Below, piece after piece: positions 14,454 through 34,274 of a stretch of DNA of 64,000 bases. The stretch lies in the NCBI GenBank assembly GCA_026419195.1, contig JANZZV010000001.1, positions 1 through 64,000 of the forward strand, given 5' to 3'. Numbering within the stretch: the stretch's first letter is position 1; each line of letters begins with the position of its first letter. The notes beneath the pieces are model-generated. The model did not search any database, was not told where the DNA came from, and worked only from the letters and a program-made list of their open reading frames with translations. The DNA comes from Fervidobacterium sp. GTDB taxonomy: Bacteria > Thermotogota > Thermotogae > Thermotogales > Fervidobacteriaceae. Position numbers and translations under genes: made by a program.

Positions 14454-15213
14454 TTGAAAAGATGCAAAAGAGAGGAAAGGACGAAATATTTACCAATAGG
14501 GATAAGTGATTTTAAAAGGTTAATAAAAGGCGAGTTTGTATATGTAGATAAGACAAGATATGTTATGAAATAATAAAGAAGGAGAGTTGATAGATGAGTA
14601 CGAAAAGCCGATACTTGATCAAATATCAGATAAACAAACAGCGCAGCAAATGCGGGATGTTCTGAGGCAAGTGTACACAAAAATAAAAAGTCTTGACAAA
14701 TATCTTCGTTTTGTTTTTTGAAAGGTATAACCAAATACACAAAAGCAGGTGTCTTTTCTGTTTTGAACGATCTGTTGACTTTTTCTTCACGAAGACCTCA
14801 GTGAGATGTTTGGATACACGAAACAAGAAATTGAACGTCATTTTGTTGAATATATTGATATGGCATGTCAAAAACTTGAAATGAACAAAGAATATCTTCT
14901 TGAACAACTCGAAAAATATTATGGTGGTTTTTCTTTTGATGGAAAACATTTTGTATTTAATCCATTTGCTACATTATTGTTTTTCTACAACAGAAAATTT
15001 CTTGCGTATTGGCATGATACTGCACAACCGAAGTTTTTGTACGACTATTTGCTCAACAGCAAGGTTAATCTTGAAGACATACTCAAAAAAGATCTGCTTA
15101 TTTCATACAATGAATTGACAAGCAAAGAGATAGAAGAAAGTGTGACGAAGTGTTTCCTTGTCCAAGCGGGATATTTGACGTTTGCAAAGATGGAAAGTGT
15201 GATAAGTAAGTAA
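14454..15213 (+). pseudogene. broken AAA-ATPase-like / PD-(D/E)XK (DUF1703 family) gene
   Basis: Pieces of one family appear in order but in alternating frames. First is KYLPIGISDFKRLIKGEF-VYVDKT (14484-14571), the family N-terminus, ending in a stop. Then comes LIDEYEKPILDQ (from 14587), the Walker B region; the P-loop part between them is missing. Next is GITKYTKAGVFSVLNDL (from 14724) after a one-base frameshift. Last is EDLSEMFGYTKQEIE onward (14791-15213), including the YYGGFSFDG and FNPFATLLFF motifs. The C-terminal nuclease domain is absent; weak remnants may continue to about 15315. These genes are widespread and often decayed in Thermotogae, Clostridia and Bacteroidetes. The 135-residue open frame at 14806 is not an intact gene. 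Confidence 0.8.
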
Positions 15214-15322: not shown

Positions 15323-16525
15323 TTATTCTTTTTCTTTGAATCCCAGAGCTTGAAGTGCTCTTTTCATATATTTGTTTTTCATGACAATGTCCCAGATCAA
15401 ACCTGTTTTGTAATTTTCTATCATAAGTAATGTTATGCCTTTATCTATTCCAATATATATCTCAGAAAACCAATTTTTGTCTAAGTTATATGCATCTTTA
15501 AATCCATACTTACCCCAAAGTTCTGGTACTTTCTCGTAGTAGTATTTTACAGTTTCTTCAACGACTTCAGGTACAAATACGATAGAACCAATCGCACCAC
15601 AAGGTGGTATAGTTCCATCAACATAATGCTGTGTGTTGTTGTTCCAAGACGGTGGTGCACCAAAGTCACCCCTGTAACCATCCGGAGAATCGCATGCTGT
15701 AAGGCCCCAAGAACATTCATGGAGAGTTTCAAATTGGCTGTGCATATCTTTGCAATACTCCCAGTTTGAAAGCGAAGCCTTAGTTGAGTTTTCGAACCAA
15801 TTTATATTGTTTTTGTCTACAATGTTTCTGAAATCTATCCATGCATGTGAAAACTGGTAAGTAAAAAGTGAGCCAGTGTAAGTATAGATAAGTTCGTAAT
15901 CTTTGTATCTTCCTACGTCACGTTGAAAGGAATCATAGACCGATGGATTCACAGGGTACGTTGGAGAAGCAACTGAGAGAAAATACATAATCAATTGTTC
16001 TGCATATCTGTCCCAGTTGCCCCAAAACCCTCTTTCGTAATCATAGCCCATGTAAAATTGGTTTTTAGAATTGTCAAGGTACCATTGAAAATTGACTTTT
16101 GAATATATTTCTTCAAAGAGTTGATACACTTCTCCACCAAAGTACTCGCCAACTGTTAGGGCGCCCATCAGGAAAAGTGCTGTATCTATGACCGATATTT
16201 CAGAGTGCCAAGCACGTTTTCCGTTACCCATATATACAAAATGTACAAAAAAACCTTCCTTTTGCTCAACATTATTGAGAAATGTCTCAAGAGTTTTCAG
16301 CGCTCGTTCTCTTCCTTCATTTTTGGTTATCCATCCGTTTTCAATTCCAACGGGTATACTACTTAAACCAAAACCTACAGATGCTATACTTGCTATATCT
16401 TTGTGTTTTGTGTTATCTATTATTAATCCATAGCCCTTTTCTGTTTGAGAAGTTTCGTTCCAGAAGAATTCAAATGATAACTTTTCTTCCAACTCTATTA
16501 TCTCCGAGGCTTTCAATTTAATCAT
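15323..16525 (-). CDS. cytoplasmic PF10091 glycoside hydrolase (GH144-like, putative beta-1,2-glucanase)
   Basis: This 400-residue protein has no signal peptide. It matches the 'glycoamylase-like' PF10091 fold throughout: KGYGLIIDN, ASVGFGLSSIPVGIENGWIT, the SEISVIDTALFLMGAL segment, FTYQFSHAWIDFRN, SWGLTACDSPDGYRG and GTIPPCGAIGSIVF. PF10091 includes the endo-beta-1,2-glucanases of GH144 and the transglycosylation domain of cyclic beta-1,2-glucan synthase (GH189); an alpha/alpha barrel is expected. It is the last gene of the 12-gene operon, 9 bp after its secreted paralogue. A cytoplasmic copy would shorten imported oligosaccharides. The start is uncertain: ATG 16525 directly abuts AAAGG and a TTG 9 bases later is possible. 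Substrate is inferred. Confidence 0.8.
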   Translation of the reverse strand: MIKLKASEIIELEEKLSFEFFWNETSQTEKGYGLIIDNTKHKDIASIASVGFGLSSIPVGIENGWITKNEGRERALKTLETFLNNVEQKEGFFVHFVYMGNGKRAWHSEISVIDTALFLMGALTVGEYFGGEVYQLFEEIYSKVNFQWYLDNSKNQFYMGYDYERGFWGNWDRYAEQLIMYFLSVASPTYPVNPSVYDSFQRDVGRYKDYELIYTYTGSLFTYQFSHAWIDFRNIVDKNNINWFENSTKASLSNWEYCKDMHSQFETLHECSWGLTACDSPDGYRGDFGAPPSWNNNTQHYVDGTIPPCGAIGSIVFVPEVVEETVKYYYEKVPELWGKYGFKDAYNLDKNWFSEIYIGIDKGITLLMIENYKTGLIWDIVMKNKYMKRALQALGFKEKE

Positions 16526-16534
16526 CCTTTCATA

Positions 16535-17791
16535 CTATTTTTTATATACGAATCCCAAATGCTTCAAACCATTCTGTATGTAATCAATACTCATGAATAT
16601 TCTCCATACTATTTCGTTTTTGTAATTCGCTAACATCAGCAGACTTATACCTTTGTCTATTCCTATGTAGTCACTTGCAAACCAACTTATGTCAAGATTA
16701 AATGAGTCCTTTAATCCGTACTTATCAACTAACGCAGGCAACTTGTAGTAGTTCTCAATAGCCCATGTTGATTCTTTGGGGGTAAACACGATGGAACCTA
16801 TGGCACCTGATGGCGCAAGTGTACCGTCTATTTGGTGAGCGGAATTGTTGTTTCCAGATGGAGGTGTACCAAGTAGCCCATTGTAGCCTTTTGGTGTGTC
16901 ACAAGCTGTAACTCCCCAGCCAATTGTAAAACTTTTATATTTTCCCTTATTATCTTGACAATAATAGTAATTTGCTAAACTTGCAAGTACAGAGTTTTGA
17001 TACCAGTTTGTTCCAAGTTTATCGTACCAATGCCTGAAATCTATCCAGGCGTGAGAATATTGGTAAGTAAAAAGGGAACCAAACCAGGAGTGTATGAACT
17101 TTTCGGTTTTATAGCTTCCATAGTTTCTTGTGAAAGAGTAATACACTGTCGAGTCAATTCTGTATTTTTTGTTTGGTGTACCAGCTGCTAGAATATACAA
17201 CATAAGTTGTTCGGCATAAAAATCCCAGTATCCTTGGAAGCCCTTTTCAGGATAGTAAGCCATGTAAAATTGGTTCCTTGCTTGGTTGATCATTTTGTTC
17301 CAATCTACTCGTTCATACAGTTTTTTCGCCAATTCCCAGGCTTGTCCTCCGAAGTATTTTCCGGCGGTGAGTACACCACACATGAGGATTGTTGTATCTA
17401 TTGTTGATACTTCACTATTCCATATTCTCTTGCCGGTGTTTATATCCAAAAAATGGTAGAAAAAACCATGGAAATGATCAATATTCAACAATGTTTTTAG
17501 TGTGTTTATCACTCGTTTCTCACCTTGCTCTTTCGTGATCCATCCTTCCTCTACTCCGATTACGATAGCAGTCAATCCAAAACCTGTTGCCGCTATACTT
17601 GCAATTGTGGGATTCCCAGGGTACCTATCTCTCACTAACCCGTAACCAGGGCTTTTTTCGTCAGTGTTGGTTTGATCCCAAAAGTACATGAATGATCTTG
17701 TGTATTCTTTTTGAAGGACTTCGTTAAGTTTGTTGATGCCAAACGAGAGTATTACAATAACTAACATTAATAAGCTTAGCGTCCTTTTCAT
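16535..17791 (-). CDS. secreted PF10091 glycoside hydrolase (GH144-like, putative endo-beta-1,2-glucanase)
   Basis: The 418-residue product starts at ATG 17791 after AAAGGAG and has a signal peptide (MKRTLSLLMLVIVILSFG). The rest is a PF10091 domain: YGLVRDRYPGNP, AATGFGLTAIVIGVEEGWIT, NSEVSTIDTTILMCGVLTAG, FTYQYSHAWIDFRHWYD, GWGVTACDTPKGYNG and GTLAPSGAIGSIVFTP. It is a paralogue of the next gene. Outside the cell it would cut a polymer into pieces for the two binding proteins encoded upstream in the operon. GH144 founders act on beta-1,2-glucan, which is why I infer that substrate. GH189-like activity or another beta-glucan cannot be excluded. Confidence 0.82.
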   Translation of the reverse strand: MKRTLSLLMLVIVILSFGINKLNEVLQKEYTRSFMYFWDQTNTDEKSPGYGLVRDRYPGNPTIASIAATGFGLTAIVIGVEEGWITKEQGEKRVINTLKTLLNIDHFHGFFYHFLDINTGKRIWNSEVSTIDTTILMCGVLTAGKYFGGQAWELAKKLYERVDWNKMINQARNQFYMAYYPEKGFQGYWDFYAEQLMLYILAAGTPNKKYRIDSTVYYSFTRNYGSYKTEKFIHSWFGSLFTYQYSHAWIDFRHWYDKLGTNWYQNSVLASLANYYYCQDNKGKYKSFTIGWGVTACDTPKGYNGLLGTPPSGNNNSAHQIDGTLAPSGAIGSIVFTPKESTWAIENYYKLPALVDKYGLKDSFNLDISWFASDYIGIDKGISLLMLANYKNEIVWRIFMSIDYIQNGLKHLGFVYKK

Positions 17792-17805: not shown

Positions 17806-18723
17806 CTATTCTCCAGTTATTCCTGTTCTGTCTATACTTTCAATAAACCAGTCTTGAGCAAAGAAATATATTATTAGCAAAGGAAGTATCGACAGCAAAG
17901 TACCTGCCATTACAATAGCTTCGTTGAGACTTCTACCTGATTGCATTCCAGGCAACGATTGATAGATCCTTTGGAATGTATCTTCAAAACGTTGCAGTTG
18001 TAGTGGGAGAGTAGTCCATTTTTCACCAAGATAAAGCGCTGTAATAACTGTGTCATTCCAGTACCATACGAGTGAAAATAAGAAAGATATTAAGTAAGCA
18101 GGTCCAGCTGAAGGAGCAGCGATTTTGTAAAATACTTTAAACGTTGATGCACCGTCTATTTTTGCAGCTTCTTCAAGAGACTTTGGAAACATGTTGAAAA
18201 ATTGATAAAATATTATGATAAAGATAGCACTTCTAATTCCCTGTACGAAAGTTGCTGGTAATACAAGCGACCACAAACTCCCGAGTAATCCCATATCTTT
18301 AAATGTTAAAAATTGAGGAATCATGGTCACTTGCGATGGTATTATGAACGTTGCTATTGCAATGGAAAATAGAAATTTCTTCCCTGGAAACCTAAATCTT
18401 GAAAACCCATAACCTACTACGGAAGCTGACAAAGTTTGGAACAGTGCAGGAATAGTTGTAATAACAATTGTTTGAGTTAATGTCTTTGCATAATCTAAAA
18501 CTTTAACAGCATCTTTATAGTTTCCCGCGTACAATTTCGTTGGAACCCATTTTACAAGTGGGTTCACAAGATCAGAAGTGTCCATAAAGCTGTATGAAAT
18601 CATGAAGATTATCGGATAAATGAATACAAATCCTACAAGCAAAAGTAAAAAATATACACTGGCTACTTCAATTGAATCTTTGGTTTTCTTACGGATTTTA
18701 TAAATGTCAAACTTTTTAAACAT
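17806..18723 (-). CDS. CUT1 sugar ABC permease, MalG type (pair B)
   Basis: This is a 305-residue membrane protein with six helices and the EAA loop LEEAAKIDGASTFKVFYKIAAP. MalG-type signs are YPIIFMISYSFMDTSD near the N-terminus and the terminal WFIESIDRTGITGE. It has an extended N-terminal cytoplasmic segment (residues 1-20) rich in Lys. It follows its MalF-type partner by 15 bp. In this operon it forms the second of two permease pairs, separated from the first by the NHL-YIP1 and DUF5696 genes. The substrate is presumably a beta-glucan oligosaccharide. Confidence 0.9.
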   Translation of the reverse strand: MFKKFDIYKIRKKTKDSIEVASVYFLLLLVGFVFIYPIIFMISYSFMDTSDLVNPLVKWVPTKLYAGNYKDAVKVLDYAKTLTQTIVITTIPALFQTLSASVVGYGFSRFRFPGKKFLFSIAIATFIIPSQVTMIPQFLTFKDMGLLGSLWSLVLPATFVQGIRSAIFIIIFYQFFNMFPKSLEEAAKIDGASTFKVFYKIAAPSAGPAYLISFLFSLVWYWNDTVITALYLGEKWTTLPLQLQRFEDTFQRIYQSLPGMQSGRSLNEAIVMAGTLLSILPLLIIYFFAQDWFIESIDRTGITGE

Positions 18724-18738: not shown

Positions 18739-19605
18739 CTACTTTTTAATCACTCTCTTTCCGTAAATAACGCCTATAATCGCAAATACACCTATTACAA
18801 GTAACATAGCCAAGAAATATATCCAAGATAGAGCAGAAGCATATCCAAGGCCTCTTTCTGGTCTGTACATGTCTACAAGTATCTTTTGGATAATCGGATT
18901 GGTTGCAAAGGTAGACACAGTAACGATTGTGTACACAACGTTTACAAATGTGAGTGGTGTTAGTACAGGTAAAGTTATTTTCCATAATATCTGCCATTTT
19001 GAAGCTCCATCTATTTTTGCTGCTTCATACATGCTTTTGTCAATTTTCTGCAAACCTGCAAGGTAAATAAGGATTTGCACACCAGAGAACCAAAGTATCA
19101 TTATGAAACCGGATACAAACATATCGATTGCTTTCGAAAGTAATGCGGGTAGATTTGCTTGGATGTCTTTTATTAGTTGAAAATTGTAAAGTCCTTCAAA
19201 TGTCATTGCACCTTTGCTTAGCAACTTGTTGAAAACAGGTCCACTTGCAATCACAACTGGAAGAAAGTAAATTGTTCTAAACAATGCTCTACCTTTGATG
19301 TTTATATTCAACAGCAAAGCCATTATCATCGAAAATGAAATTATTATAGGAACATAAACTATTATTTGGATGAAGTAATCAACCAAGAGCTGTGGATACG
19401 TAACATCTGTCAAAAAGGCATCTTTATAGTTTTTCGTACCTACGAAAAACATTCTAACTCCTTCTGCTGTAACCTTTACTTCGTTTAGACTAAAAGTGAA
19501 AGTTTTAATTAACGGTATGAGTGTAAAAAGAAGAAATCCAATAATCCATGGTGAAATAAAAATAAGGCCATTTATAGCTTCTCTCGTACGAAGTTTTATT
19601 TTCAT
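18739..19605 (-). CDS. CUT1 sugar ABC permease, MalF type (pair B)
   Basis: The 288-residue permease has six predicted helices, the MalF-type opening NGLIFISPWIIGFLLFTLIPL and the EAA loop YEAAKIDGASKWQILWKITLP. Its ATG overlaps the stop of the DUF5696 gene (TAATG), which points to translational coupling. The segment around residues 125-160 (KLLSKGAMTFEGLYNF) is longer than in many MalF proteins of this size. It pairs with the MalG-type permease just downstream. Together they would serve one of the operon's two solute-binding proteins; which one is not clear. Confidence 0.9.
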   Translation of the reverse strand: MKIKLRTREAINGLIFISPWIIGFLLFTLIPLIKTFTFSLNEVKVTAEGVRMFFVGTKNYKDAFLTDVTYPQLLVDYFIQIIVYVPIIISFSMIMALLLNINIKGRALFRTIYFLPVVIASGPVFNKLLSKGAMTFEGLYNFQLIKDIQANLPALLSKAIDMFVSGFIMILWFSGVQILIYLAGLQKIDKSMYEAAKIDGASKWQILWKITLPVLTPLTFVNVVYTIVTVSTFATNPIIQKILVDMYRPERGLGYASALSWIYFLAMLLVIGVFAIIGVIYGKRVIKK

Positions 19606-21734
19606 TACTGCTCACCTCTGATGATTTTCCAAGAGACACCAGAAATTTCATGATTCTTATACGTTATTGTAGACGAATTATAGTTAAATATAATTGATAC
19701 ATTGTTTTCGTAGTCCACAATGTAAACATTTTCGTATAATTTAGTGCGCTTTATTGGTCTATTTTTTCCCAAGATATTTTTAATGTTTTTATACTCAAGG
19801 TAGGACTTTTTGATTTCTTCTCGCCAGTCGTTGAATTTAGTTGATATAAGATGTTGAGAGTTTGTGTCGACAAGTTCTTTGGAACTTTCCCATGTTAAGT
19901 AGAAACTTGGCATAACACCGTATTCTATGCACTTCAGTAGTTGCAATCGATAATCAGCAGAAAGATTTATAGGCTTTGAAAACACAGTTCGAAAGTTGCT
20001 TAACACAAAAGGTACTATGGGAAAAACATCGTTTTCTATTTCATAACCTGAATTTTCAAGTGTCAGGTCTGCTATCATGTATGAATTCTTTAAGAGATAC
20101 CAATTCGAACCGTAAATAATTGGTTTTTCAAACAGACCGATAAGCTTTTCAAATAGATTTTTGGTCTTGGACCTTTCCAGGTTCTTTGTTGAGTAGAGCA
20201 TTTCTCCAATTGTTCCCAATGCAAGATTACTGATACCAAATCTTTTGAATTTTTGTTTTTCCTCTGTAGCTATCTTACTTACCAAGATAGGGTCAGTTAA
20301 GAAATTTTCTTCTCTTTCGATAAGCTGCTCGAGTTTGTTTTGTGCTACTATTAGTCTCCTTGCAAATTTTGAGATTTTTGGGAATTTTACGTAATCAACA
20401 TATATATAGTCATCTGCAATTTTCTCAAGACTGTTTATTATTTTTTGTTCAAATGGTAAATGGTATGGTGAATTTCTCGAATATCCATCTTTGCTGTAAC
20501 CTCTGAGTACATAAACAACATTGTCCAATGTGTGTGAGAGTTCGTTTTTTATTTTCTCAAGTTGTTCTTGTGTGGTCATCTTAACCAGAGTATAACCAAA
20601 CGCTGTCTTTTTTGCTTCTGACATGAGGACGTCAATTTTAAATATCGGTTCGGTAGAATTTTTGCTCGATATTTGCTCAGCGTACTCAGAAATAAATTTG
20701 TTTGCCAATGTATATTCATTTGAATCAGATAAGAAGTAATATCTGATGTGTGGTTTGACTGGATTCATATTCTCTTGTGGTATGGTTATTCCTTGTCCCT
20801 GCTTGTTTAATAGCTTTTTATGTATATCTCGAAATACAAACCGCCCCGATAGCCAGTTATAAGGCGTTATTATACCACTTTTGTATGCATTTATCTCTAC
20901 GTATTCCTCAGAGTTCTTGAATATAGCTAAAAGACCATTTTGATTATATAAAATTCCATACATCGGTAAGACATAGGATGAAGGTTCTTTGATATTTCTA
21001 AAATATGTTTGGGGTATAACTTCTCTAAACCCAATGTCTTCACCATAGATCCTCATTTTGAATGGTGCAGTTGCCGTGCTTACCTTTGAGAGTTCGACAA
21101 TTGCACCTACTCCGTCTGCAAGTATAAAACGCCCATCTGCCAAACCTTTTGAACCACCTAAGTATGGATATATGAATAATCCCATAACTTTGTATGTACT
21201 TTCTTTTATATCTTTTACCACCACATCAGCTGAATCATTATTAAAAGACAAAATAAGTCTAAGAAAGATGTCCACGTTTCTAAACTTAACAGCAAATGTG
21301 AGAGAATTTTTCTCTTCTTTTTCCAATTTGATATCCGCATCTTTTGATGAATAAAGACGTTTAACGCCGCCGACTTCGTCGTAAAATTCAACAACTAAAG
21401 CGGAGTTAAAAAACATTCTCCACGTAGTGTTTATTTCACTGTCTTCATTTTCTAACGCTGATTTCCATACGAATCCACTCTTCTTATCTTCAACTGTGAA
21501 ATTCATCGTCTTGGTGTCAACATTTGTTCTTATTGCTTGGGTTTCAAATGTTTTACCGTACTTAGGAGTTACAAACTGATATGGTGAGTCGTCAAGTTTC
21601 TTATAAACCATTGATGTGCTCTGTTCTGGTACATTTTTTATCCAGATAGTGAATGTAATTATTATGGAAAGGATAAATAGGAACTTTATTATTAAAAAAT
21701 ACAGTCTTGTCAAATATCTATTTTGTCCTTGCAC
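19605..21734 (-). CDS. membrane-anchored DUF5696-type protein
   Basis: The 709-residue protein starts at a GTG with GAGGAG 10 bases upstream and overlaps the end of the NHL-YIP1 gene by 17 bp. One hydrophobic helix (residues about 11-28) should anchor it, leaving a large domain outside. The N-terminal half (about 45-330) looks like a beta-rich domain (FTVEDKKSGFVWKSA, WRMFFNSALVVEFYD, PYLGGSKGLADGRFIL). The C-terminal half (about 345-690) alternates helices and strands as in a glycosidase-like barrel but I see no sure catalytic motif. Its family (DUF5696, recalled) occurs with YIP1 proteins, large binding proteins and permeases in Clostridia and Bacilli. A sugar-processing or substrate-handing role is inference only. 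Confidence 0.65.
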   Translation of the reverse strand: MQGQNRYLTRLYFLIIKFLFILSIIITFTIWIKNVPEQSTSMVYKKLDDSPYQFVTPKYGKTFETQAIRTNVDTKTMNFTVEDKKSGFVWKSALENEDSEINTTWRMFFNSALVVEFYDEVGGVKRLYSSKDADIKLEKEEKNSLTFAVKFRNVDIFLRLILSFNNDSADVVVKDIKESTYKVMGLFIYPYLGGSKGLADGRFILADGVGAIVELSKVSTATAPFKMRIYGEDIGFREVIPQTYFRNIKEPSSYVLPMYGILYNQNGLLAIFKNSEEYVEINAYKSGIITPYNWLSGRFVFRDIHKKLLNKQGQGITIPQENMNPVKPHIRYYFLSDSNEYTLANKFISEYAEQISSKNSTEPIFKIDVLMSEAKKTAFGYTLVKMTTQEQLEKIKNELSHTLDNVVYVLRGYSKDGYSRNSPYHLPFEQKIINSLEKIADDYIYVDYVKFPKISKFARRLIVAQNKLEQLIEREENFLTDPILVSKIATEEKQKFKRFGISNLALGTIGEMLYSTKNLERSKTKNLFEKLIGLFEKPIIYGSNWYLLKNSYMIADLTLENSGYEIENDVFPIVPFVLSNFRTVFSKPINLSADYRLQLLKCIEYGVMPSFYLTWESSKELVDTNSQHLISTKFNDWREEIKKSYLEYKNIKNILGKNRPIKRTKLYENVYIVDYENNVSIIFNYNSSTITYKNHEISGVSWKIIRGEQ

Positions 21735-23730
21735 GGAATATCAACTCCTCAAACAAAGAGGTGAGAAATGAAACTTCTTCTCTAACAAGGATGAAGATTA
21801 TAACTATAAGTATAGAAATAAGTATCATCGTAAAGAACGTTAAGATGAGGTTTTTAACAGTTTCAGAAAACGAGAAATTATGTATTTGGGCAATTATAAT
21901 GACAAGCCAGATTATTGACCAAGCCCATATAATCTGCATTCCAAAATTATATATGAACGACTCATTCAATGTTAGAAAATTTGTTATTAGCGCAAGTGGT
22001 ACAGAAAACAATATATATGGCAAAAAAGCCTCTATTGTCCCAATAAATATATCCTTGAATCGTCCTTCTCCTTCAGAAATTTCACTGACAAGATAATTGG
22101 ACAAAACGAACAAGAAAAGAAATTTGTACGTGTCAAAAAATAAGCTAATGAAATTTATTTTCCTTGCTTCGAAACCAACAAATAAAGGAGAACCAACAAG
22201 TTTAATGATTATATTTTCGATGTAAAGTAAAGCATAAAATATCATTGCCGTTAATGGAGAGATCCTATTTTTTCTTTTCATCTCGTAGACTGCATCAAAT
22301 GGGTTTTTTAAAAATAAAAGTGAATATTTTATCTGTAGTTGCCATTCATGTTGCTTCTTCTTTTTTGCACTTGGTTTATTCAAAATAATTCCTTGGCGCT
22401 TAAGCAATGTTCTTACTATATCAAATATTGCTAAAAGTACTACAATAAGAAAAATAAGTCCGACAAATTTTTGCAACCACACGTTTCTGAGGTACCAGAA
22501 AGCTTCTGAGTAACCCTTTTCATCCTGTGCAATTTTGAAATAATTAAAGGCTTTTGCGTAATTTCCTTTCTTAAATTCTATGTTACCAAGCACTTTATAT
22601 GTTAAAATAAAAGCGGAATTAAACTTGAGTATCTCATTCCATACATTTTCTCCTTCAAGGTAGAGTCCCTGATTGTAAAACTGTACACCTTTTAGAACAA
22701 GCTTGCCAAAATTTGTTTTTCTTAGTACGGTTATTGAAGAATCTTCTTTGTCGAGTATAAATATCTCACCTTCGTCGGAGACAGAGATTGCAACCGGGGT
22801 TCTGAACAGACCAAGTCTATTTTCGTAAAAACTTTGCCCGCCAAAAATGAAGATAAGATTTCCAAGGTTATCGTAAATGTATATCAATCCATTAGATGTT
22901 AATGCATAAACGTTGCCATATTTATCAACATCCAGATCTACAAAATTGTCAGAAGAAAAATCAAGTGTTGGGTATATGTTTACTCCAGCAACATTGAATC
23001 TTTTTATAGCGTCTTCTTTGAGTCCTTGAGTTACAGTCCAGACTGAACCAAAATCATCTATTGCCAAACTTGTTGGAGATGGTGGACGTATCTTAAGTAA
23101 TTGCGCTTTTTGACTTTCTGTGAATAAAATTCTTTGTAAAATCATTCGAAACGTAACTTTTGGCTCGTTTGCTCCGTAGAAGCTTAGGAATTGACCGTAT
23201 CTATTAAATACTGCAAGTCCGTTGGTGACTCCTTGGCATACAACGTATACGTTTCCTCTTCTATCCGCTGCTAATTTAAGTGGTACAAAGTCATTTGTTT
23301 GACCATAAATGGGCGAAGTCGGTTTTGAAATGCTCAGCAGCAATTTTCCATCATTTGAGAACTTCAAAACCTGTTGAGACCACGAGTCGGCTACATACAC
23401 ATTCTCCTCGGAATCGACAAATATTCCTGATATGCCGATCAGCTGCCCTTCGCCAATTTTGTTAGTGATTTGATATTCCATTGTTGAAATATTTTCTTGA
23501 GTAACATAAACAATTGCATTATCTCCATCAGCGAGATAGAGTTTTCCATTTTTCCAGAATAAGTCAGCTAATGTTCCTACATTGAAATGGAGTTTCTTAA
23601 CAGGTTCATATGCGTCTTGTATTCTTACAAGTTGTTTTCCAACACCTACTGTGTAAGTGTAATAAGGCGAATATGATATTGATAAGGTTGATAAGAAAAT
23701 CAGAAATAAGAAAATCCACACCTTGTTCAT
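21718..23730 (-). CDS. NHL-propeller / TPR / YIP1 membrane protein
   Basis: The start is ATG 23730, 7 bases after AAGGAG. The 670-residue protein begins with a signal or anchor (residues about 2-20). Residues about 50-345 carry repeated NHL-type strands (GIFVDSEENVYVADSW, LAADRRGNVYVV, LAIDDFGSVWTV, LDVDKYGNVYAL, ISVSDEGEIFILD), a beta-propeller outside the cell. A TPR-like unit (NIEFKKGNYAKAFNYFKIA) follows, then a helix near 410-430, a basic cytoplasmic linker (KPSAKKKKQHEW) and a YIP1-like region with four or five helices to the end. It lies between the two permease pairs. A sensor, scaffold or transporter accessory are all possible; none is established. Confidence 0.72.
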   Translation of the reverse strand: MNKVWIFLFLIFLSTLSISYSPYYTYTVGVGKQLVRIQDAYEPVKKLHFNVGTLADLFWKNGKLYLADGDNAIVYVTQENISTMEYQITNKIGEGQLIGISGIFVDSEENVYVADSWSQQVLKFSNDGKLLLSISKPTSPIYGQTNDFVPLKLAADRRGNVYVVCQGVTNGLAVFNRYGQFLSFYGANEPKVTFRMILQRILFTESQKAQLLKIRPPSPTSLAIDDFGSVWTVTQGLKEDAIKRFNVAGVNIYPTLDFSSDNFVDLDVDKYGNVYALTSNGLIYIYDNLGNLIFIFGGQSFYENRLGLFRTPVAISVSDEGEIFILDKEDSSITVLRKTNFGKLVLKGVQFYNQGLYLEGENVWNEILKFNSAFILTYKVLGNIEFKKGNYAKAFNYFKIAQDEKGYSEAFWYLRNVWLQKFVGLIFLIVVLLAIFDIVRTLLKRQGIILNKPSAKKKKQHEWQLQIKYSLLFLKNPFDAVYEMKRKNRISPLTAMIFYALLYIENIIIKLVGSPLFVGFEARKINFISLFFDTYKFLFLFVLSNYLVSEISEGEGRFKDIFIGTIEAFLPYILFSVPLALITNFLTLNESFIYNFGMQIIWAWSIIWLVIIIAQIHNFSFSETVKNLILTFFTMILISILIVIIFILVREEVSFLTSLFEELIFRARTK

Positions 23731-23758: not shown

Positions 23759-24628
23759 TTACTTTATCCCAGAATGTGCCATCGTGTTCATTACCTTGCT
23801 TTGTGTGAATATGAATATGACTAAATTAGGTAAAAACATAATAGAAGCAGCAGCTGCTGCAATGCCTACACCAGCTATTGTTCCGGATGCCCCACTAAGT
23901 GTTGACATATAATAAGCAAAGTTTTTCAAACTTTCTTCGTTCATATATATCATTGATGATTCTGTACTGTTCCAAGCTGTCTGAAATGCAAGAATCGCCA
24001 CTGTTGCTACGGCTGGTCTTGTAAGAGGTAATATAATCTTCCAGTATATGAACCAGTCACTCGCACCATCTATTTTAGCTGCTTCAATTAATGAATCTGG
24101 AATTTGATCGATGAATTGCTTCACCAGAAATAATCCAACAGGCATTGCAAGTGTTGGAAGAATGTGAGCGAGAAAATTGTCAATGAATCCAAGTTTGGCA
24201 ATTATTATATACCTCGGTATAGTAACCGACACCGGTACAAACATCAACGCAAGAGTGTTTATTTCAAATATAACTTTCTTCAGTTTAAAATTCTTTTTTG
24301 AAAGTACGTAACCAGCAGCTGTGCTTATGAATATAGACAATAAAACTACGGCCAAGGATATTAGAAAACTGTTAAATAAGTACCTACTGACTGGTATTCC
24401 AGAGAGTGTCATAGCGTTGAAGAGCATTTTGAAGTTTTGAAGTGTCGGACTTCTGACAAATATTCTCGGTGGAAATGCAAAAAGTTCATTATATGGTTTA
24501 AAAGCATTTGAAAAGATAAATACTAATGGCAATGCCATAAAAAGAGCCAGTGGAACAAGGAAAAAGTAAAATTTTAACTGGCTTTTATGAAAACGTTGAG
24601 GATTTATCTTTGTACCTTGGAATGCCAT
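23759..24628 (-). CDS. CUT1 sugar ABC permease, MalG type (pair A)
   Basis: This 289-residue membrane protein shows six helices and the EAA loop IEAAKIDGASDWFIYWKIILP. The N-terminal PLVFIFSNAFKPYNELFAFPP segment and the terminal NTMAHSGIK mark it as MalG-type. A CGAGGTG site precedes the ATG. It is 28 bp downstream of its MalF-type partner and 28 bp upstream of the NHL-YIP1 gene. With the 939-residue binding protein encoded just before the pair, it probably forms one complete import channel, apart from the missing ATPase. Confidence 0.9.
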   Translation of the reverse strand: MAFQGTKINPQRFHKSQLKFYFFLVPLALFMALPLVFIFSNAFKPYNELFAFPPRIFVRSPTLQNFKMLFNAMTLSGIPVSRYLFNSFLISLAVVLLSIFISTAAGYVLSKKNFKLKKVIFEINTLALMFVPVSVTIPRYIIIAKLGFIDNFLAHILPTLAMPVGLFLVKQFIDQIPDSLIEAAKIDGASDWFIYWKIILPLTRPAVATVAILAFQTAWNSTESSMIYMNEESLKNFAYYMSTLSGASGTIAGVGIAAAAASIMFLPNLVIFIFTQSKVMNTMAHSGIK

Positions 24629-25561: not shown

Positions 25562-28381
25562 TTATTTCTTTTTGTAAAATTCTAAAATGTCGTCAACAGT
25601 GTATATTTTAAACGGCTTGAATGGCTTACCATCTTTGTAATATCCAAACTCTTCCAATTTTCGTGCAAATTCTTTGTTCACTATATTAACAGCGTCATCG
25701 ACAGCGACTCTTAACACTTTACCTTCAAGAACAACCTTGTTCCATACGTTGCTAATTTCTCTCTCAAGAACATAGCTTGCGGGCATTTTTGGTATTTCTT
25801 GAAGCCATTGAAACTGTTCTTTCAGTATTAGAAGATCCTCACGTTTGAGAGGAACATTATCTATAGCATAACGATTTGATGGTAGAAAAAGATACTCTAT
25901 ACCATATGTACTAACTACTTGATTTACAAAATTTTCTTGTGTTTCTTTTGAGAGCCACCACTTAACAAATTCCCAAGCTTCAACTGGATACTTTGTGTCA
26001 TTGAAAATAACAACAGCCTGTGCAGAACCTGTCTGCCATCTTTCGATGACATTTCCATACTTTACACCGGGGGATGGTCTAATACCCCATCTGCCTGAAA
26101 GTTCGGGAGCCGCAATTACCAGCTGAATATAGTTTGTCAAATTTCCAATACCAATAGGAATTTCGCCTTTTCTGAAGCTTTCGAAGAAATTTGCTACTTG
26201 TACAGGCATTCCATACATAGTAAAGAGTTCTGTCATTTCCTTCAAAGCTTTCAATGTTTCAGGAGAATCAATTGCGGTTTTGAGTCCATCTTTTGTAAAT
26301 AGTTTACCATGGTATTGCATGATAAATGGTGCAGTTGTCATCCAGGCTTTGAAAGAAGTAGAACCACCAAGTGGTATGTAAAAATTCATACCGTTTCTTT
26401 GAAGTTCTGGAAGAATTAATTTAACATCTTCCCAGGTTTTTGGAATTGGTATATTAAGATATTGCATTATATCTTTCCTGTAGAAAAGTACATAAAAGTC
26501 CAGTGTTTCAGGTAAACCATAACAGTGTTCTTCGTAAAAATATGGTATCAATGAGCCAGGATAGAAATTGTTTATAAATTTCCCAAAATCTGGGAAGCGC
26601 GTTAAATCAAGAGCTGCACCACGAATTCCCATTTCGAATGGTATCCAATTACTTATACCAAGTGCAATGTCAGGTGATTTTTTAGCCGCGTTTGCGAGTA
26701 TTAGCTTTTGTTCATCACGCATTATCGATAGTTTTACGTAAATTTTCGTTCTTGGAGTAAAGTCTTTGTCTATCAATTGCTGGAGTATATCCACATATGG
26801 TCTTGGCCTGTTTACCCAGATATTCAGTAGTCGCAAATTTGATTCATTTTTCATTTTATTTTGCAAATCCATTGCTCTGAATGAGTTGAAAAATCGCTTT
26901 GTCCCCTCTATGAACGTGCTAACAAAAGAAGGTCTAACGATCTTTTCCAAACTTTTTCCTTGGTAAATGTATATTTCGTCTAATATTAGTGGCATCTGTC
27001 TTAGACTGTTGTAAACGTTACTTATCTCAGAAATAACAGAACCTGTGCTTCCTATAAGTGTATCGAGCTTGTTTGGTATAAGATTTGGATTCTTTGCCAA
27101 ACGTTCAAGTATAATCTGAGCAACTTGGAGAGACGTATAATCCGATGTAATAACACCATTTACGGCTTTGATAAATTTCTTGTAGTTTTTTATTTTATTT
27201 ATGAGCTTTTGCAATTCTTTGTCTATATCTGTAAAGTAATCTCGTATTTCCCACTCGACAATCTTGTTAGCCTTACCTGCTGTTATGTATTTTATCTTTA
27301 ACGCTATTTCATTTATGTAATCAATTATTTCTTTCAAACCAACTAAGAGATCTTGATAAATCGATGTATTTACTTCTATTTCTATGTAATGCTCTCCTTT
27401 GGAAAAATAGAAATTCATATCAGATTTGTCCTTAACAGATTTTAAGTTCTGTATTTTCCAATACGGTGTATACTCAAATCTAACGTTATTTAAATCTTCA
27501 AATGGTACAACGCCATCGAGCTTAATTTTCCTGAATACAACAACATATGGCTTGAAGTCTTGTTTATATTTGAATGCGATTTTATAAAATCCATCTTTTT
27601 CTATTTTAAATTTATACACAACACTTTGTCCTGGATAAGCCCAGTTGCTTCCTCCAAAGCAATTTAACAACAACTTATAGGTATCGTAAGGTTTAACAGA
27701 AATGTCTCTTACACTTGCAGCATTTACTGATGTGTCACTTTTTGCATAAGGTTTTTCTGCGTTTACGACAATAAACGCTTCGTTAACTTGTGTATTAGTG
27801 GATTTTAAATAGGTTGTTGCTCTTTTAGGTCTAGTAAATGATATACGTACCAGTTTTATTCTTCCAGATTTCAAAGTTATTTTTACATTGTTTAATCCTT
27901 TGGACAACTTGAACCACAGTGGGTATTTGTATATTTTCGTAGAGTCTTCAAGTGTGTATGATATGACATTTCTCAGAACATTTTGACTTGGTACAACTTC
28001 GTCACCGTATCTGTTTTTGGGATATTCAAAAGTATCATACTGCCAGTACTGAATTAGCGGTATGGACTCAGCTTCTAAGAATGGAAGTTTGTTGTTTATT
28101 TCAACAGAAACTTCTGGAGGGAACACTTCACTTGACAAAACAATGTATTGAAGATTCAAGTTCCAGTATCCATTTTTTGGTGAAAAAACAGAAAATTCTA
28201 AAGAACTTCCAGGAATAAGTTCAACAGAATACTGGGGAGAGGTCCAAAGAGTCTCCCCAGTTAACGGAAGAGGTTGGATGTGTTTCAAATACGTTGAATA
28301 CTCATAAGGTTGTGTGGCATACAAATATGCAAAAAATTTAATAATGAAAAAGGTAAACAATAATAGTATCTTTCTTGGCAA
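25562..28381 (-). CDS. very large solute-binding protein with N-terminal beta-sandwich domains
   Basis: The start is TTG 28381 with GGGAGG 7 bases upstream. At 939 residues it is about twice a normal sugar-binding protein. After a signal peptide (1-22) two beta-rich, CBM-like regions occur (about 45-185 and 205-355; e.g. [19 protein letters not shown]). A helical segment follows (about 360-500). The family 1 binding-protein domain is at about 530-910, with [33 protein letters not shown] and [14 protein letters not shown]. No lipobox is seen. Similar large forms occur beside YIP1 and DUF5696 genes in Clostridia (recalled). The extra domains may hold polymer or dock with the NHL protein; this is inference. 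Confidence 0.78.
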
Positions 28382-28414: not shown

Positions 28415-29719
28415 TCATTTTGTCATTATAGAGATTTTCTTTATGGCGTTTTGATATTGATCATTTGCTATTTTGTTGAGTTGCTTGACATAGTCTGCAA
28501 TATTTACTGGTCCTCTCATGGCATTCCAAATGACATCTCCAATATTAGCATTTGGATTATCCCCAACTTTTATACCAGTAGGAGCTGTCCACCTTGATTG
28601 AATATAACCTGGCACGATCTTTACTCCTTCAATGATACCGGAACTAATTTTCGCGTATGCTTCATCAATACCTGGATATAGTCTTTTAACGGCAAAATAC
28701 CTATCGAGAACAGCCTTTTCTGTTGTTAATGGCATAGACGACCATTGATTTTTCTTATCGAGTTCCAATCTTTTCAGTATGCCATCCTTTCCGAATGTTA
28801 CAAATTTTGCGAATGTAAATGCTTCCTTTGGATATTTTGTAGTCTTTGCAATAATGAAAAAGTCACCTACAACAGGTGTTCTACCACCTGGTACTCCAAT
28901 GAATCTACTCTTGAATGGGAGCGTTGAAAAGAAAGGTGTATCCCATGTACCAGACCACCTTATTGCTATTTTTCCCTGATTCCAAACATCTCCGTACCAT
29001 CCAGCATTGTATTGTTTTTTCTGTTCTTCTGGCAAGGCATCGTAAACGTATTTACCCTGCCAAAGCTGTTTGGCTATATTCACAGCTTCTGTAAACGATG
29101 GATCATCAAGGTTATATTGCTTACCATCCCATGTATACCACCCAAGTCTAAGATTTTTCATTGCCGGGTACCATTCTGGGATTTGTACTTCTTCTGCAAG
29201 TCCGATTATTCCATCTTTAGGTATTGTAAGCTTTTTAACCGCAGAAAGAAATTCAGGCCAGGAAGGTGCAAATTTGAGAGGTTTAACGTTGTATTTTTCG
29301 AATAGATCGTCGTTTACAAAGTATCCCATGAAATACAATCCAGCGGGGATTGCATAAATTTTGTTATTGTAAACCGTTGCGTTTCTTATAGGAGCGGGGA
29401 TATTTTTCCATTCGGGATCTGCCATTGCCATCCTTGTAAGATCAAGAGCCCAGTCGTTTGTTAATGCCATTGGAATGTTAGGAATCATAATAACATCCGG
29501 CAACTTTCCAGCAGCTGCTTGAGCAATTAACCAATCTTCATAGTTACCTTCGGCTGTGATGATCTTAACTTCAATATCTGGATAAAGCTTCATGAATTCC
29601 TCCACCATAGCTTTTTCGATATCTAACCCAAGGTTCCAGTTAACATATGTTATGGTAACCTTTGCAAGACCAAAAATACTGAAGACCACTAACAAAACTA
29701 ACAAAAATAACCTTTTCAT
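28415..29719 (-). CDS. extracellular sugar-binding protein of conventional size
   Basis: The 434-residue protein starts at ATG 29719 after GGGAGGG and has a signal peptide (MKRLFLLVLLVVFSIFG) without a clear lipobox. The mature protein fits the family 1 binding fold: ITYVNWNLG, GKLPDVIMIPNIP, IYAIPAGLYFMGYFVNDD, KIAIRWSGTWD and TKYPKEAFTFAKFVTFG. It lies directly before the 939-residue binding protein gene, so the operon codes for two. It may deliver a different chain length, or serve permease pair B further downstream. The ligand is inferred from the GH94, GH35 and PF10091 neighbours. Confidence 0.88.
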   Translation of the reverse strand: MKRLFLLVLLVVFSIFGLAKVTITYVNWNLGLDIEKAMVEEFMKLYPDIEVKIITAEGNYEDWLIAQAAAGKLPDVIMIPNIPMALTNDWALDLTRMAMADPEWKNIPAPIRNATVYNNKIYAIPAGLYFMGYFVNDDLFEKYNVKPLKFAPSWPEFLSAVKKLTIPKDGIIGLAEEVQIPEWYPAMKNLRLGWYTWDGKQYNLDDPSFTEAVNIAKQLWQGKYVYDALPEEQKKQYNAGWYGDVWNQGKIAIRWSGTWDTPFFSTLPFKSRFIGVPGGRTPVVGDFFIIAKTTKYPKEAFTFAKFVTFGKDGILKRLELDKKNQWSSMPLTTEKAVLDRYFAVKRLYPGIDEAYAKISSGIIEGVKIVPGYIQSRWTAPTGIKVGDNPNANIGDVIWNAMRGPVNIADYVKQLNKIANDQYQNAIKKISIMTK

Positions 29720-29797: not shown

Positions 29798-32179
29798 CTA
29801 CTTATTTGTACGACCGAGTATAACTTCAACTTTGTGTGTATTACCATCTTTCAAAATAGGTATCCTATCAACTTCCTTTCCATCAAATATAAGCGCTTTC
29901 ACACCATAACTTACATTTTCAGGATTTTTCACTTCAAATAAATATGTTGTGTTATCAAATACTCTTTTGTACTTAAAACCATTCCAATGAGCTGGAATTA
30001 CGGGATCAATATCTATGTATCCGTAGTTTGGTCTTATCCCAAGTATCCAGTGTGTTGCAATTCTCTGAAGCCACTGCGCGGAGCCTGTGTACCAGGTCCA
30101 ACCACCACGACCGTAATGTGGTGAAGTTGGACCGTCGGAGTTGCCGCATGTTACATAAGGCTCTGCCCAATATTTGTCAATGTCGTAGCTTCTATAAGGT
30201 GGACATATACCTTTATAGGCTTTATACATTGCGTCAACATCCTTCATTAAAGCAAATGCCCAAACAGCCCACGTTGCTGCATGAGTGTAAACACCTCCGT
30301 TTTCTCTTAAACCAGGAGCGTAACGAGTTATGTAACCTATGTCCTTTTGTGGTTTAGTGTAAGCTGGATACAGTAACAAAGCACCATAATCTTTAAGTAA
30401 ATATTTCTTGACTGATTCCATTGCTTTATGTTTTCTTTGTTCATCTGTAATGTTACTTATAACAGCCCAAACCTGAGCATTTAAGAATATTTGCCCTTCT
30501 TCATTCTTCTTTGAACCAAGTTCTTCTCCGTTGTCTTTCGTAGCTCTTATAAACCAATCTCCATCCCATGCGTATTTGTTAACAGATTCTTTCAAGGTTT
30601 CTATTACATCTTTGCATTTCTTTGCGAATCTAAGATCACCTTTTTGTTCGATTATTGGGATGAAATCGTTAAGCAATTTGTATATAAAGTGAGCAAGCCA
30701 TATGCTTTCACCTTTCCAATCCGTACCAACAGCATTTAGACCATCATTCCAATCATGTTCACCTATCAATGGTAAACCTCTTGGCGAAAACCTCTTGAAT
30801 GACTTCTCGATTGCACGTTTACAATGCTCATACAAAGTTGCCTCTGTACCATCTAAGAATGGTACAACTTCATCAAGAATTGAATAGTCCAAAGTTTCTT
30901 TGATGTACTCTTGCGTTATAAAGGGTAACCACAACAAATCATCTGAACAATGAGTCCTTGGACCACCACCGCGAATGGTAAACCACCAATGTAACACATC
31001 ACCTTCTTGAAATTGATGTGCAGCATGCAAAAGTATTTGTTTTTTCGCGAGCTCAGGTTTAAGTGCAAAAAAAATCTGGGCATCTTGGAGTTGATCTCTG
31101 AATCCATAACCAGCTGAGACTTGGTAGTAGCCTGATTTTGCCCATATTCTTCCTGATATTGCTTGATACTTCAACCAATAGTTCGTCATGATGTTCAAGC
31201 CTTCGTCTGGTGTTTCAACTAATTCTTTTTCAAGCATATCCATCCAAAATACTTTGACATTTTCCAATTCGTCCCTTGCAGTGTTGACATCTGTATATTT
31301 TTTAGAAAGCTCAAACGGATCTTCTTCACCTATCTTTGCAGCTCCTATTGTAAAAACAATATCTTTGCTTTCACCAGGTGCGAGTTCAATTTCAACTTGC
31401 AAAGAGGCACAAGCATCACCGAATCTATCACATTTTGTTTCCAATATCTTACTTTTCATCGCTCTTGGGCGTTCCTCACTGCCATACATCCCAATGAAAC
31501 TCTCCTTATCACATGTATAGGATTTTACTGGAACATTAACACTGTGAAAAGCTACGTGATCCCAATCTGTATTATTCCACCTTCCCTTTTCATCAGGAAA
31601 CTGACCAAGATATTTTCTCACGAATATCGTATTATTTTCGAAGGAAGGAACTATAAACAGTTTATGAAATTCTCTGTGTTCGTCTGGAAAATTTCCAAGT
31701 ACCCATTCAAAATAAGACGTGACATCAAGTTTTCTTACCTTATTATCCTCGTTCCTCAATGTCAACCAGGCAAATTCTACTGGCGCATTTATGGACACAA
31801 ACACCTTTAGCTCGGAGTATACATCATGTACTTTGTGCTTATATATGGTGTAACCTATACCATGTACAACTTCATAAAGTTGGTAATCTGCTTTAACTGG
31901 TTTCCATGAAGCTGACCAAAATTTACCACTTTCAATATCTCTGATATAGTAATACTTTCCCCAATTATCTTTGATTAGATCTTGATACAATCTGGTAATC
32001 CTGTTTTGGCCCGCGTTGCCACGCCATGAATAACCGCTTCCTGTGTGTGATGCTATTATTGAATAGTCACCATTACTGATCACATTAACCCATGGACGAG
32101 GTGTGTATGGATTGGTTATCACATACTCTTTTCCGTCTTTAGTAAAATAGCCATACTTGCTTTCGAATAACTTATCCAT
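29798..32179 (-). CDS. GH94 beta-glucan oligosaccharide phosphorylase
   Basis: This 793-residue cytoplasmic enzyme matches GH94 end to end. It has the N-terminal beta-sandwich (RPWVNVISNGDYSII, GSGYSWRGNAGQNRIT). The alpha/alpha barrel has GYGFRDQLQD (about 357-366), HWWF...GGGPRTHCSDDLLWLP (about 397-419) and EHDWNDGLN (475-482), whose Asp pair includes the expected general acid. GH94 enzymes split beta-glucosides with phosphate, giving glucose 1-phosphate; they act on cellobiose, cellodextrin, laminaribiose, chitobiose, sophorose or beta-1,2-oligoglucans. The length fits the cellobiose-phosphorylase size class, and the GLPLIG..DWNDG..GES pattern is shared with cyclic beta-1,2-glucan synthase domains. 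Its start overlaps the GH35 stop by 8 bp. A beta-1,2 substrate is inferred from the PF10091 genes. Confidence 0.88.
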   Translation of the reverse strand: MDKLFESKYGYFTKDGKEYVITNPYTPRPWVNVISNGDYSIIASHTGSGYSWRGNAGQNRITRLYQDLIKDNWGKYYYIRDIESGKFWSASWKPVKADYQLYEVVHGIGYTIYKHKVHDVYSELKVFVSINAPVEFAWLTLRNEDNKVRKLDVTSYFEWVLGNFPDEHREFHKLFIVPSFENNTIFVRKYLGQFPDEKGRWNNTDWDHVAFHSVNVPVKSYTCDKESFIGMYGSEERPRAMKSKILETKCDRFGDACASLQVEIELAPGESKDIVFTIGAAKIGEEDPFELSKKYTDVNTARDELENVKVFWMDMLEKELVETPDEGLNIMTNYWLKYQAISGRIWAKSGYYQVSAGYGFRDQLQDAQIFFALKPELAKKQILLHAAHQFQEGDVLHWWFTIRGGGPRTHCSDDLLWLPFITQEYIKETLDYSILDEVVPFLDGTEATLYEHCKRAIEKSFKRFSPRGLPLIGEHDWNDGLNAVGTDWKGESIWLAHFIYKLLNDFIPIIEQKGDLRFAKKCKDVIETLKESVNKYAWDGDWFIRATKDNGEELGSKKNEEGQIFLNAQVWAVISNITDEQRKHKAMESVKKYLLKDYGALLLYPAYTKPQKDIGYITRYAPGLRENGGVYTHAATWAVWAFALMKDVDAMYKAYKGICPPYRSYDIDKYWAEPYVTCGNSDGPTSPHYGRGGWTWYTGSAQWLQRIATHWILGIRPNYGYIDIDPVIPAHWNGFKYKRVFDNTTYLFEVKNPENVSYGVKALIFDGKEVDRIPILKDGNTHKVEVILGRTNK

Positions 32180-34274
32180 GATGTATAGTCACTCCCCTTT
32201 TCTCAATTTTGCTTCGTTCAAATACAAAAATTTTACCACTTCTTGAGTGAATAACAGCTGTTGTAATATAAGAACCACCAATAATAATCTTAGCCTTTTT
32301 GTCGTAATCATCGTAATTGTTAACAAAAAAAATATCTTCCATATCCGATCTTCTCATATATCCGTCCAAAAATCCGTCTTCGGAGACTAATTCAAAAGAT
32401 CTCTGTATGTTCATGATATTGCATATACTCTCTATAACCCTCAGTTTGTATTCTCTTTCGAGTTCTATACCACAGCCGAGCACTAATACAGCCCCATTTC
32501 TATAATCTTTTTTGAAAGCACATACATCTCCTTCTCTGCTGATGCCATACACCTTACATTCATTGTCTAATTTGTAAGTTTCTAAATTATACGCATTTAC
32601 TTCTGTATCAAATATCTTTGCAAAGCCACCACCCTGGCTATTTACATTCGATATCCCGAGCATTTTAAGGATATTTGTACATTCATTACCAAATTCGTCA
32701 AAGAACGGAACCTCAGGGAAAAGAATCAATTTTCCACCACTTTCAACATATCTTACCAGTTTTTGCTGCACGACTCTTGGCATAAACTTCAATGAAAAAA
32801 CCCACAGTGAATTGTACTTACATGGATCGATATTTTCACCGTTTTCAAGATCAATAAACTTGAAGTTGTAGTTTAGCAATTTAAGGCCACGAAGAATTCC
32901 ATCAAAAACTGATATGTCTCTTTTGAAAGAAATTTCCGAAATGTTCATACCATGTTCCAAAAAATGCTCTGTTGAGTAATACGACGGTATAAAACCAAAA
33001 AAAGTGTCGAACACAGGTTTTGAGCGTAAAAGTTTTTCCTCAATATCCCTTATCTCAGCAATGAATTCCTTCAAAACAAAGTAACTCCTTCTCAGTTCTC
33101 CGTTTGATCCAATCGGTGCTTGCCAATCGTGGTAACTTCCCATCAAACCATAGTCGTCTGGATTGACACCACCAGCGAACATGTAGTAATTTATTCCGTT
33201 CATGCCTTGTCCAATACACAATCTCGATGTAAGTTCCAGTGTTGATGGTAAAAGTTTTGGTCGGTCGGTTTGAAACCCGCTTTGGAACTCAGCTGAAAAA
33301 AGTGGTTGATCAACATTCTGAATGGCATACATCAATGAATTAGCAATTGTGAGGTCAGAAAAATTTTCATGGACTATATTTCCTATGTAGTAATCACCAG
33401 AAAGGATAGAATTTTCTATATTTTTTGCTTTCATAAGTTGTGAAACACCTACTACATAGTTCTTACCCCTTTTTGCATACTCTACCGTGTCAAAACCATG
33501 GATATTGACTATTACTGGAACATCTATTCCAAACTTACGTATGTAACTTGAAAGTGTGTCTAAATATTTAGCATAGTAAAGTCTCAAGAATTTATGATAC
33601 ATAATTGTCATTCTCTGCGAAAATTTTTTTCCATAGGTCCAAGTTTTTAACTCCTCACACAGTTCTTTATCGTTATCTTTCAAAAATTCACTGAATCGAT
33701 TTAACGTATCTTCGTTATAATCACCATGTCCAGTTATCCATTGCAACATTCCTACTTCATTATCTATCTGAATCAGAACAACGTTAAACTCCTTAGCTAT
33801 ACTAAAAACGTTGTCGTACCATCTTTCAACATACCTAAGAAAATCTGGGTGTAGATAAGAAAAAACTCTTGTTGGGTGTAATTTGCCATCCAAAGTTTTT
33901 GCAATGGCATGTGGAATCTTTTCGTAAATCCACGCTGGCAAACCCTCGTTTTTGAGCTCAGACATAATATACGGACCTGGTTTAAATATGATATTAAACC
34001 CTAACAATTCAGCGATTTTCATAAAACCTAATAAATTTCTTCTTTCATCAGTTTTACCATGAAAATCGAAAGTTCCATCTTCTATTTCATGCCAGAACCA
34101 GGGAACATAAAAACTAATTGTATCAATCCCTGCATTTTTAATTTTTTCTAGCCTATCTTCCCAGTCTTTTTGTGGTAATCTGAAATAATGTATCTCAGCA
34201 GAAAATATAAATTCTTTCTTTCCATCGATAATGAATACGCCATTGTTAAAAGTCACCTTTTTCAATTTCTTCAC
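32172..34274 (-). CDS. GH35 family glycosidase (first gene of the large operon)
   Basis: The 700-residue cytoplasmic protein opens with the GH35 barrel: FSAEIHYFRLPQKDWEDRL, SFYVPWFWHE, FKPGPYIMSELKNEGLPAW. The acid/base Glu173 lies in LIQIDNEVG and the likely nucleophile Glu329 in FSAEFQSGF. A GH42-like middle domain and a small beta domain complete it. Textbook GH35 enzymes are beta-galactosidases, with archaeal exo-glucosaminidases related; a GH35 beta-1,2-glucosyltransferase from Ignavibacterium has also been reported (recalled). The last fits the operon best. It leads the 12-gene operon behind a LacI operator. A paralogue lies at 35629-37740. Specificity is open. Confidence 0.82.
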   Translation of the reverse strand: MKKLKKVTFNNGVFIIDGKKEFIFSAEIHYFRLPQKDWEDRLEKIKNAGIDTISFYVPWFWHEIEDGTFDFHGKTDERRNLLGFMKIAELLGFNIIFKPGPYIMSELKNEGLPAWIYEKIPHAIAKTLDGKLHPTRVFSYLHPDFLRYVERWYDNVFSIAKEFNVVLIQIDNEVGMLQWITGHGDYNEDTLNRFSEFLKDNDKELCEELKTWTYGKKFSQRMTIMYHKFLRLYYAKYLDTLSSYIRKFGIDVPVIVNIHGFDTVEYAKRGKNYVVGVSQLMKAKNIENSILSGDYYIGNIVHENFSDLTIANSLMYAIQNVDQPLFSAEFQSGFQTDRPKLLPSTLELTSRLCIGQGMNGINYYMFAGGVNPDDYGLMGSYHDWQAPIGSNGELRRSYFVLKEFIAEIRDIEEKLLRSKPVFDTFFGFIPSYYSTEHFLEHGMNISEISFKRDISVFDGILRGLKLLNYNFKFIDLENGENIDPCKYNSLWVFSLKFMPRVVQQKLVRYVESGGKLILFPEVPFFDEFGNECTNILKMLGISNVNSQGGGFAKIFDTEVNAYNLETYKLDNECKVYGISREGDVCAFKKDYRNGAVLVLGCGIELEREYKLRVIESICNIMNIQRSFELVSEDGFLDGYMRRSDMEDIFFVNNYDDYDKKAKIIIGGSYITTAVIHSRSGKIFVFERSKIEKRGVTIHHG

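Follow-up and report, generated by a model that had tools for sequence, protein, structure and literature searches.

The window analysed here, a 64,000-nucleotide stretch of Fervidobacterium sp. (positions 1 to 64,000 of contig JANZZV010000001.1, assembly GCA_026419195.1), carries on its minus strand two adjoining genes, denoted Y and D, that are flanked by two permease genes on each side. Y encodes a protein with an NHL propeller and a Yip1 membrane region, and D a protein of the DUF5696 family. Y runs from an ATG at 23730, preceded by AAGGAG, to a TAG ending at 21718 (670 amino acids); D runs from a GTG at 21734 to a TAA ending at 19605 (709 amino acids). A preliminary description of this DNA had noted that Y overlaps D by 17 bp and that D overlaps the next permease. 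Both overlaps were confirmed, the first at 21718–21734 and the second as a single base pair at 19605, shared by the stop codon of D and the ATG of the permease (TAATG). The start of Y is separated by 28 bp from the end of the upstream permease (23759). Y and D form the center of a seven-gene cassette with the fixed order BS-A1-B1-Y-D-A2-B2, which in the window consists of the following genes:

25562–28381, minus strand: BS, a large solute-binding protein of 939 amino acids, with its binding domain at residues 510–820 and about 500 extra N-terminal residues
24657–25544, minus strand: permease A1, MalF type, pair 1
23759–24628, minus strand: permease B1, MalG type, pair 1
21718–23730, minus strand: Y, with a signal peptide, an NHL beta-propeller (residues ≈25–338), TPR-like helices (340–401), a transmembrane helix (404–445) and a Yip1 domain (≈460–669)
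19605–21734, minus strand: D, a DUF5696 protein of GH129 fold, with a membrane anchor (residues 5–33), a supersandwich, a TIM barrel (≈365–655) and a C-terminal beta domain
18739–19605, minus strand: permease A2, MalF type, pair 2
17806–18723, minus strand: permease B2, MalG type, pair 2

A scan of genome contigs yielded 80 loci, and the cassette order was present in nearly all of those with sufficient flanking DNA. The order was the same in Thermotogota, Bacillota and Chloroflexota, and was kept in divergent copies from Paenibacillus and Clostridia. Since it recurs in three phyla, the arrangement of Y and D reflects more than chance, and the idea that the pair is a local curiosity was rejected. 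As read by an open reading frame (ORF) caller, 111 of 143 loci with D were complete cassettes, a lower bound because some genes were lost through overlapping ORF calls; most of the incomplete loci could be ascribed to contig ends, missed ORF calls or solo relatives of D (see below). Overlaps were called in 106 of 136 Y-D pairs and in 98 of 134 D-A2 pairs, counts that use longest-ORF starts and are somewhat inflated. A single genome may contain up to about a dozen copies of the cassette.

The two genes are also inherited together. Eleven genomes, picked for containing D, held 51 Y proteins and 51 full-length D proteins, and these were paired without exception in either direction (51/51). Among 245 Clostridia genomes drawn evenly, D lay directly downstream of Y in 71 of 73 cases, with both exceptions at contig ends, and the unpaired D genes in this sample were either at contig ends or of the solo type. 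Y and D agreed likewise across 103 Thermotogota genomes. The association of Y and D with the importer cassette is thus very strong, as the preliminary description had supposed in assigning both proteins to the transporter, and the two families do not occur mostly apart from ATP-binding cassette (ABC) sugar genes. In our view, Y and D probably serve a CUT1 importer of long glycans as dedicated subunits in the membrane and outside the cytoplasm; D would then be a non-catalytic holder and Y a scaffold.

The genome of the window contains a second full cassette (L037, G000:C6:116200-136100), with a more typical D of ≈765 amino acids and a LacI gene and other, unlabelled genes alongside. At another locus (L031:5319-8545), an IS110-type transposase gene replaces the front half of the cassette and the start of Y; this is a decaying copy, and the same genome also has a complete second cassette (L035). 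At a third (L170), two genes on the opposite strand split D into pieces of 150 and 727 amino acids, apparently through an insertion.

The cassette displays the features of a CUT1 importer, namely MalF and MalG type permeases with the EAA motif, plus a binding protein. The EAA motifs contact the ATPase, and were recognised in 26 of 27 A1, 27 of 27 B1, 20 of 27 A2 and 27 of 27 B2 sequences. No obvious ATPase was found in any cassette. The genome of the window has one MalK-type gene (OB_MalK), located on the same contig (C1:106496-106660), and the presence of a single MalK-type OB domain gene against many CUT1 permeases suggests that one ATPase is shared by all of them. When 124 permeases were placed in a tree, each of A1, A2, B1 and B2 formed a single group, and the other CUT1 permeases of this genome fell between these groups. 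The four separate clades imply that the permease pairs are old and distinct, and a recent tandem duplication was rejected on the basis of the same tree. BS is a neighbor of A1/B1 throughout, whereas the smaller binding protein S, which lies upstream of BS in the window, adjoins B2 in Lachnospiraceae and Amphibacillus. With BS tied to A1/B1 and, in Lachnospiraceae, S to A2/B2, the arrangement suggests two binding-protein/permease units, with Y and D between them.

We considered the possibility that these units are simply two ordinary adjacent importers, one for long chains (BS, A1 and B1) and one for short chains (S, A2 and B2). Y and D would then assist a single importer, or have a part in the homeostasis of the wall or membrane while the cell grows on sugar. 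That each binding protein can neighbor its own pair, and that both pairs carry EAA motifs, is consistent with such an arrangement. However, wherever Y and D were seen with one half, the other half was there as well, apart from the IS-truncated locus L031 and contig ends, and the central position of Y and D is constant over three phyla. We therefore regard two separate importers as rather unlikely.

In the Y protein of the window, the NHL repeat passed the Pfam cutoff (37.5 bits; cutoff 20), and the Yip1 (PF04893) and TPR_2 matches fell below theirs (18.9 bits for a cutoff of 28.6, and 15.4 bits for a cutoff of 27). A Y homologue at locus L032 exceeded both of the latter (Yip1, 55.2; TPR_2, 30), and in four other genomes all 15 Yip1 matches were above the cutoff (34.7–70.5), 14 of which were cassette Y proteins. 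The sole non-cassette Yip1 match in genome G103 adjoins genes for an HlyD-like protein and for an ATPase of the ABC type. An AlphaFold model of Y (pLDDT 87.7) showed a six-bladed propeller at residues 25–338, followed by TPR-like helices (340–401), a single long transmembrane helix (404–445) and a multi-span membrane domain with membrane helices at 492–669. The Foldseek comparison, which covered the propeller only, gave Z = 28.8 to the Thin NHL structure. The NHL score, the model and the homologue scores together support the previously proposed division of Y into a propeller, a TPR-like unit and a Yip1 membrane region. In naming only membrane trafficking proteins as other carriers of Yip1 domains, the preliminary description was incomplete: YknW, a Yip1 protein of bacteria, modulates the assembly of an ABC transporter, YknXYZ (PMC4887032). 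In many loci, two adjacent genes take the place of Y, one for the propeller and TPR helices and one for the Yip1 part, as expected if the two parts work together.

D matched DUF5696 (PF18952) with 308 bits, far above the curated cutoff of 25.6. The AlphaFold model of D (pLDDT 87.8) matched GH129 (5opq) over the whole chain, with Z = 27.6 and a root-mean-square deviation of 3.9 over 564 residues, compared to Z ≤ 18.6 for other families, including GH13 and GH36. The profile of D found GH129 sequences with E = 4e-6, and the full-length profile alignment between the two had E = 7.5e-38 over 532 columns; Pfam Glyco_hydro_129 (PF11308) was not matched by D among hits up to E = 1. D thus shares its supersandwich, TIM barrel, C-terminal beta domain and profile similarity with the GH129 glycosidases NagBb (an alpha-N-acetylgalactosaminidase) and ZgGH129/DagB (a 3,6-anhydro-D-galactosidase), but differs from these in being membrane-anchored and tied to an ABC importer. 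A single hydrophobic stretch was found at all 16 D N-termini checked, which places D outside the membrane, either anchored or exported. The preliminary description of D as a large, exposed and anchored protein was correct in this respect, and had missed the glycosidase fold and the absence of catalytic residues from it.

Activity of ZgGH129 requires Asp202, Asp486 and Glu517, and Asp486 is equivalent to Asp435 of NagBb (PMC5698469). In the window D, the column of this catalytic Asp is occupied by G507, and that of the acid/base Glu, one strand further on, by G542. Of 137 cassette D proteins, 37 have the Asp and the remainder Ala, Ser, Arg, Gly, Lys or other residues. At least one of the two carboxylates is absent from 128 of the 137, and both are absent from 95; of the nine that keep both, eight are close Bacillaceae relatives. 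In contrast, the expected Asp and Glu motifs were intact in four soluble solo DUF5696 proteins of 561–571 amino acids that have no cassette (YxDV-type for Asp, (S/A)SE(G/S) for Glu), as they were in four GH129 proteins. Because the catalytic columns are mostly lost in the cassette proteins while these relatives retain the motifs, cassette D is, judging from the sequences, most likely a pseudo-glycosidase.

The solo DUF5696 relatives (L181–L184 from Clostridia, plus further solo matches), with their GH129-type Asp/Glu motifs, are probably uncharacterised active glycosidases that have been pooled with pseudoenzymes in PF18952. We considered whether they might be counter-examples to the pairing of D with Y, and rejected this, as they are shorter, have no cassette nearby, keep the catalytic carboxylates and look like separate enzymes. 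Weak DUF5696 matches in many Thermotogota were likewise rejected as cassette-free relatives of D; those examined were alpha-amylase-like TIM barrels.

Alternatively, D could be an active surface glycosidase or transglycosidase that uses other residues to trim the side groups of the glycan prior to its uptake. Apart from the GH129 fold itself and the few proteins with both aligned carboxylates, 131 of 137 cassette D proteins share D207, and Asp202 is also used by ZgGH129 (PMC5698469). Such a role is distinctly unlikely, however, given the replacements in the nucleophile column, the lack of a conserved Glu in the acid/base column and the retention of both motifs by the solo relatives; moreover, the known GH129 enzymes cut alpha linkages, whereas the neighbors in the window are beta-glucan enzymes. 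It is more improbable still that Y and D are a sensor pair in which the propeller reads bound glycan and Yip1 signals inward to adjust transport or expression, since, although NHL propellers do act as extracellular sensors (e.g., PknD, among the fold matches of Y), Y has no cytoplasmic signaling domain and a separate LacI regulator is already present in the window operon.

The cassette lies within an operon-like run on the minus strand that includes the two binding proteins and a set of enzyme genes:

28415–29719, minus strand: S, a solute-binding protein of ordinary size, with 22hh_A as its top Protein Data Bank (PDB) match
29798–32179, minus strand: GH94 phosphorylase-like protein, with the GH94 domains of cyclic beta-1,2-glucan synthases as its top PDB matches
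32172–34274, minus strand: GH35-like protein
34478–35536, minus strand: LacI-type regulator
16535–17791, minus strand: GH144-like protein (Pfam Glycoamylase) with a signal-peptide-like N-terminus
15323–16525, minus strand: second GH144-like protein, the start of which is not signal-like

The window GH94 thus comes closest to GH94 domains from synthases of cyclic beta-1,2-glucan, the GH144-like pair has XCC2207 and endo-beta-1,2-glucanase as its matches, and the nearest solved relative of the BS binding domain is Lin1841, which binds beta-1,2-glucooligosaccharides (PMC12369401). The joint presence at this locus of GH144-type, GH94 and beta-1,2-glucan-type binding proteins, each recognized by similarity only, indicates that the substrate of the window cassette is probably beta-1,2-glucan. 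A beta-1,2-glucan cluster in Ignavibacterium album likewise has two GH144 genes, a GH94 of the cyclic-glucan-synthase type (C-terminal domain), a GH35 and a Lin1841-like binding protein, but Y and D are not reported in its description (PMC8861115). Across the cassettes, the neighboring enzymes are ones that act on polysaccharides (GH3, GH144-type, GH94/SOGP, GH30, GH16, GH43 and GH31). Those beside cassettes other than that of the window are of GH3, GH30, GH16, GH43, GH31 or arabinofuranosidase type, so that what unites the loci is polysaccharide in general rather than any particular sugar. The LacI regulator is flanked by two GH35-like genes on opposite strands (32172–34274 and 35629–37740), one or both of which may encode beta-1,2-glucan enzymes like IALB_1185. 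A plus-strand ORF of 135 amino acids at 14806–15213 resembles a fragment of an AAA-ATPase-like/nuclease mobile gene.

The gene order, the co-inheritance, the fold of D and the loss of its catalytic residues are the observations from which a mechanism for Y and D can be inferred, largely by analogy. The importer would have one or two binding proteins together with two permease pairs of the MalF/MalG type. Its cargo would be long oligosaccharides or stretches of polysaccharide, in the window probably beta-1,2-glucan. D, anchored in the membrane and no longer cleaving, would hold the glycan near the permeases. Y is proposed as a scaffold because YknW modulates YknXYZ assembly (PMC4887032) and because, in bacteriocin clusters, Yip1 genes are found together with ABC genes (PMC10707071). 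By analogy with YknW, its Yip1 domain would pack beside the permeases within the membrane, while the propeller and TPR helices would face outward and hold D and BS; an ATPase encoded elsewhere would presumably power the permeases. Among the roles named in the preliminary description, a scaffold or polymer dock is our best guess. A stronger version, in which all seven proteins form one obligate Sus-like uptake complex in Thermotogota, Bacillota and Chloroflexota, with the Yip1/propeller scaffold joining the permease pairs and the dead GH129-fold protein feeding long or cyclic glycan into the membrane, is less likely than not and must be considered tentative.

Several points weigh against Y and D as non-catalytic importer subunits. 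Two permease pairs and two binding proteins are compatible with two independent transporters. In a profile comparison, the Yip1 part of Y had no direct match to YknW, the link between the two being through Pfam Yip1 only. The catalytic columns of D were placed by profile alignment rather than by residue-level structural superposition, and, as about one quarter of the cassette D proteins retain the catalytic Asp and 9 of 137 retain both carboxylates, some of them may, by their sequences, be enzymes.

The cassette resembles known systems in part. YknWXYZ, a four-component ABC exporter, also has a Yip1-family protein accompanying the transporter (PMC4887032), but YknW, which belongs to an exporter, consists of Yip1 alone, whereas Y adds a propeller and TPR helices and belongs to an import locus. 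CUT1 importers of the maltose and alginate type and the Lin1841 beta-1,2-oligoglucan system of Listeria share with the cassette the MalF/MalG-type EAA permeases, the binding proteins and an ATPase gene located elsewhere; the cassette differs in its two permease pairs, its binding protein of ≈950–1000 amino acids and the fixed presence of Y and D. Among open-license papers, no mention of DUF5696 was found, nor, in searches on Yip1 with NHL or sugar importers, any description of the cassette; an earlier description in subscription papers is possible.

In standard teaching, an ABC sugar importer consists of two permeases, two ATPases and one binding protein. The results presented here point to an apparently undescribed multi-part machine for the uptake of long sugar chains: an ancient cassette in which two fixed accessory proteins accompany four permeases and a giant binding protein suggests a whole class of glycan importers with unrecognised subunits. 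DUF5696 and a large group of Yip1 proteins from bacteria thereby gain a testable role, and views of how gut and soil Firmicutes handle polysaccharides would change.
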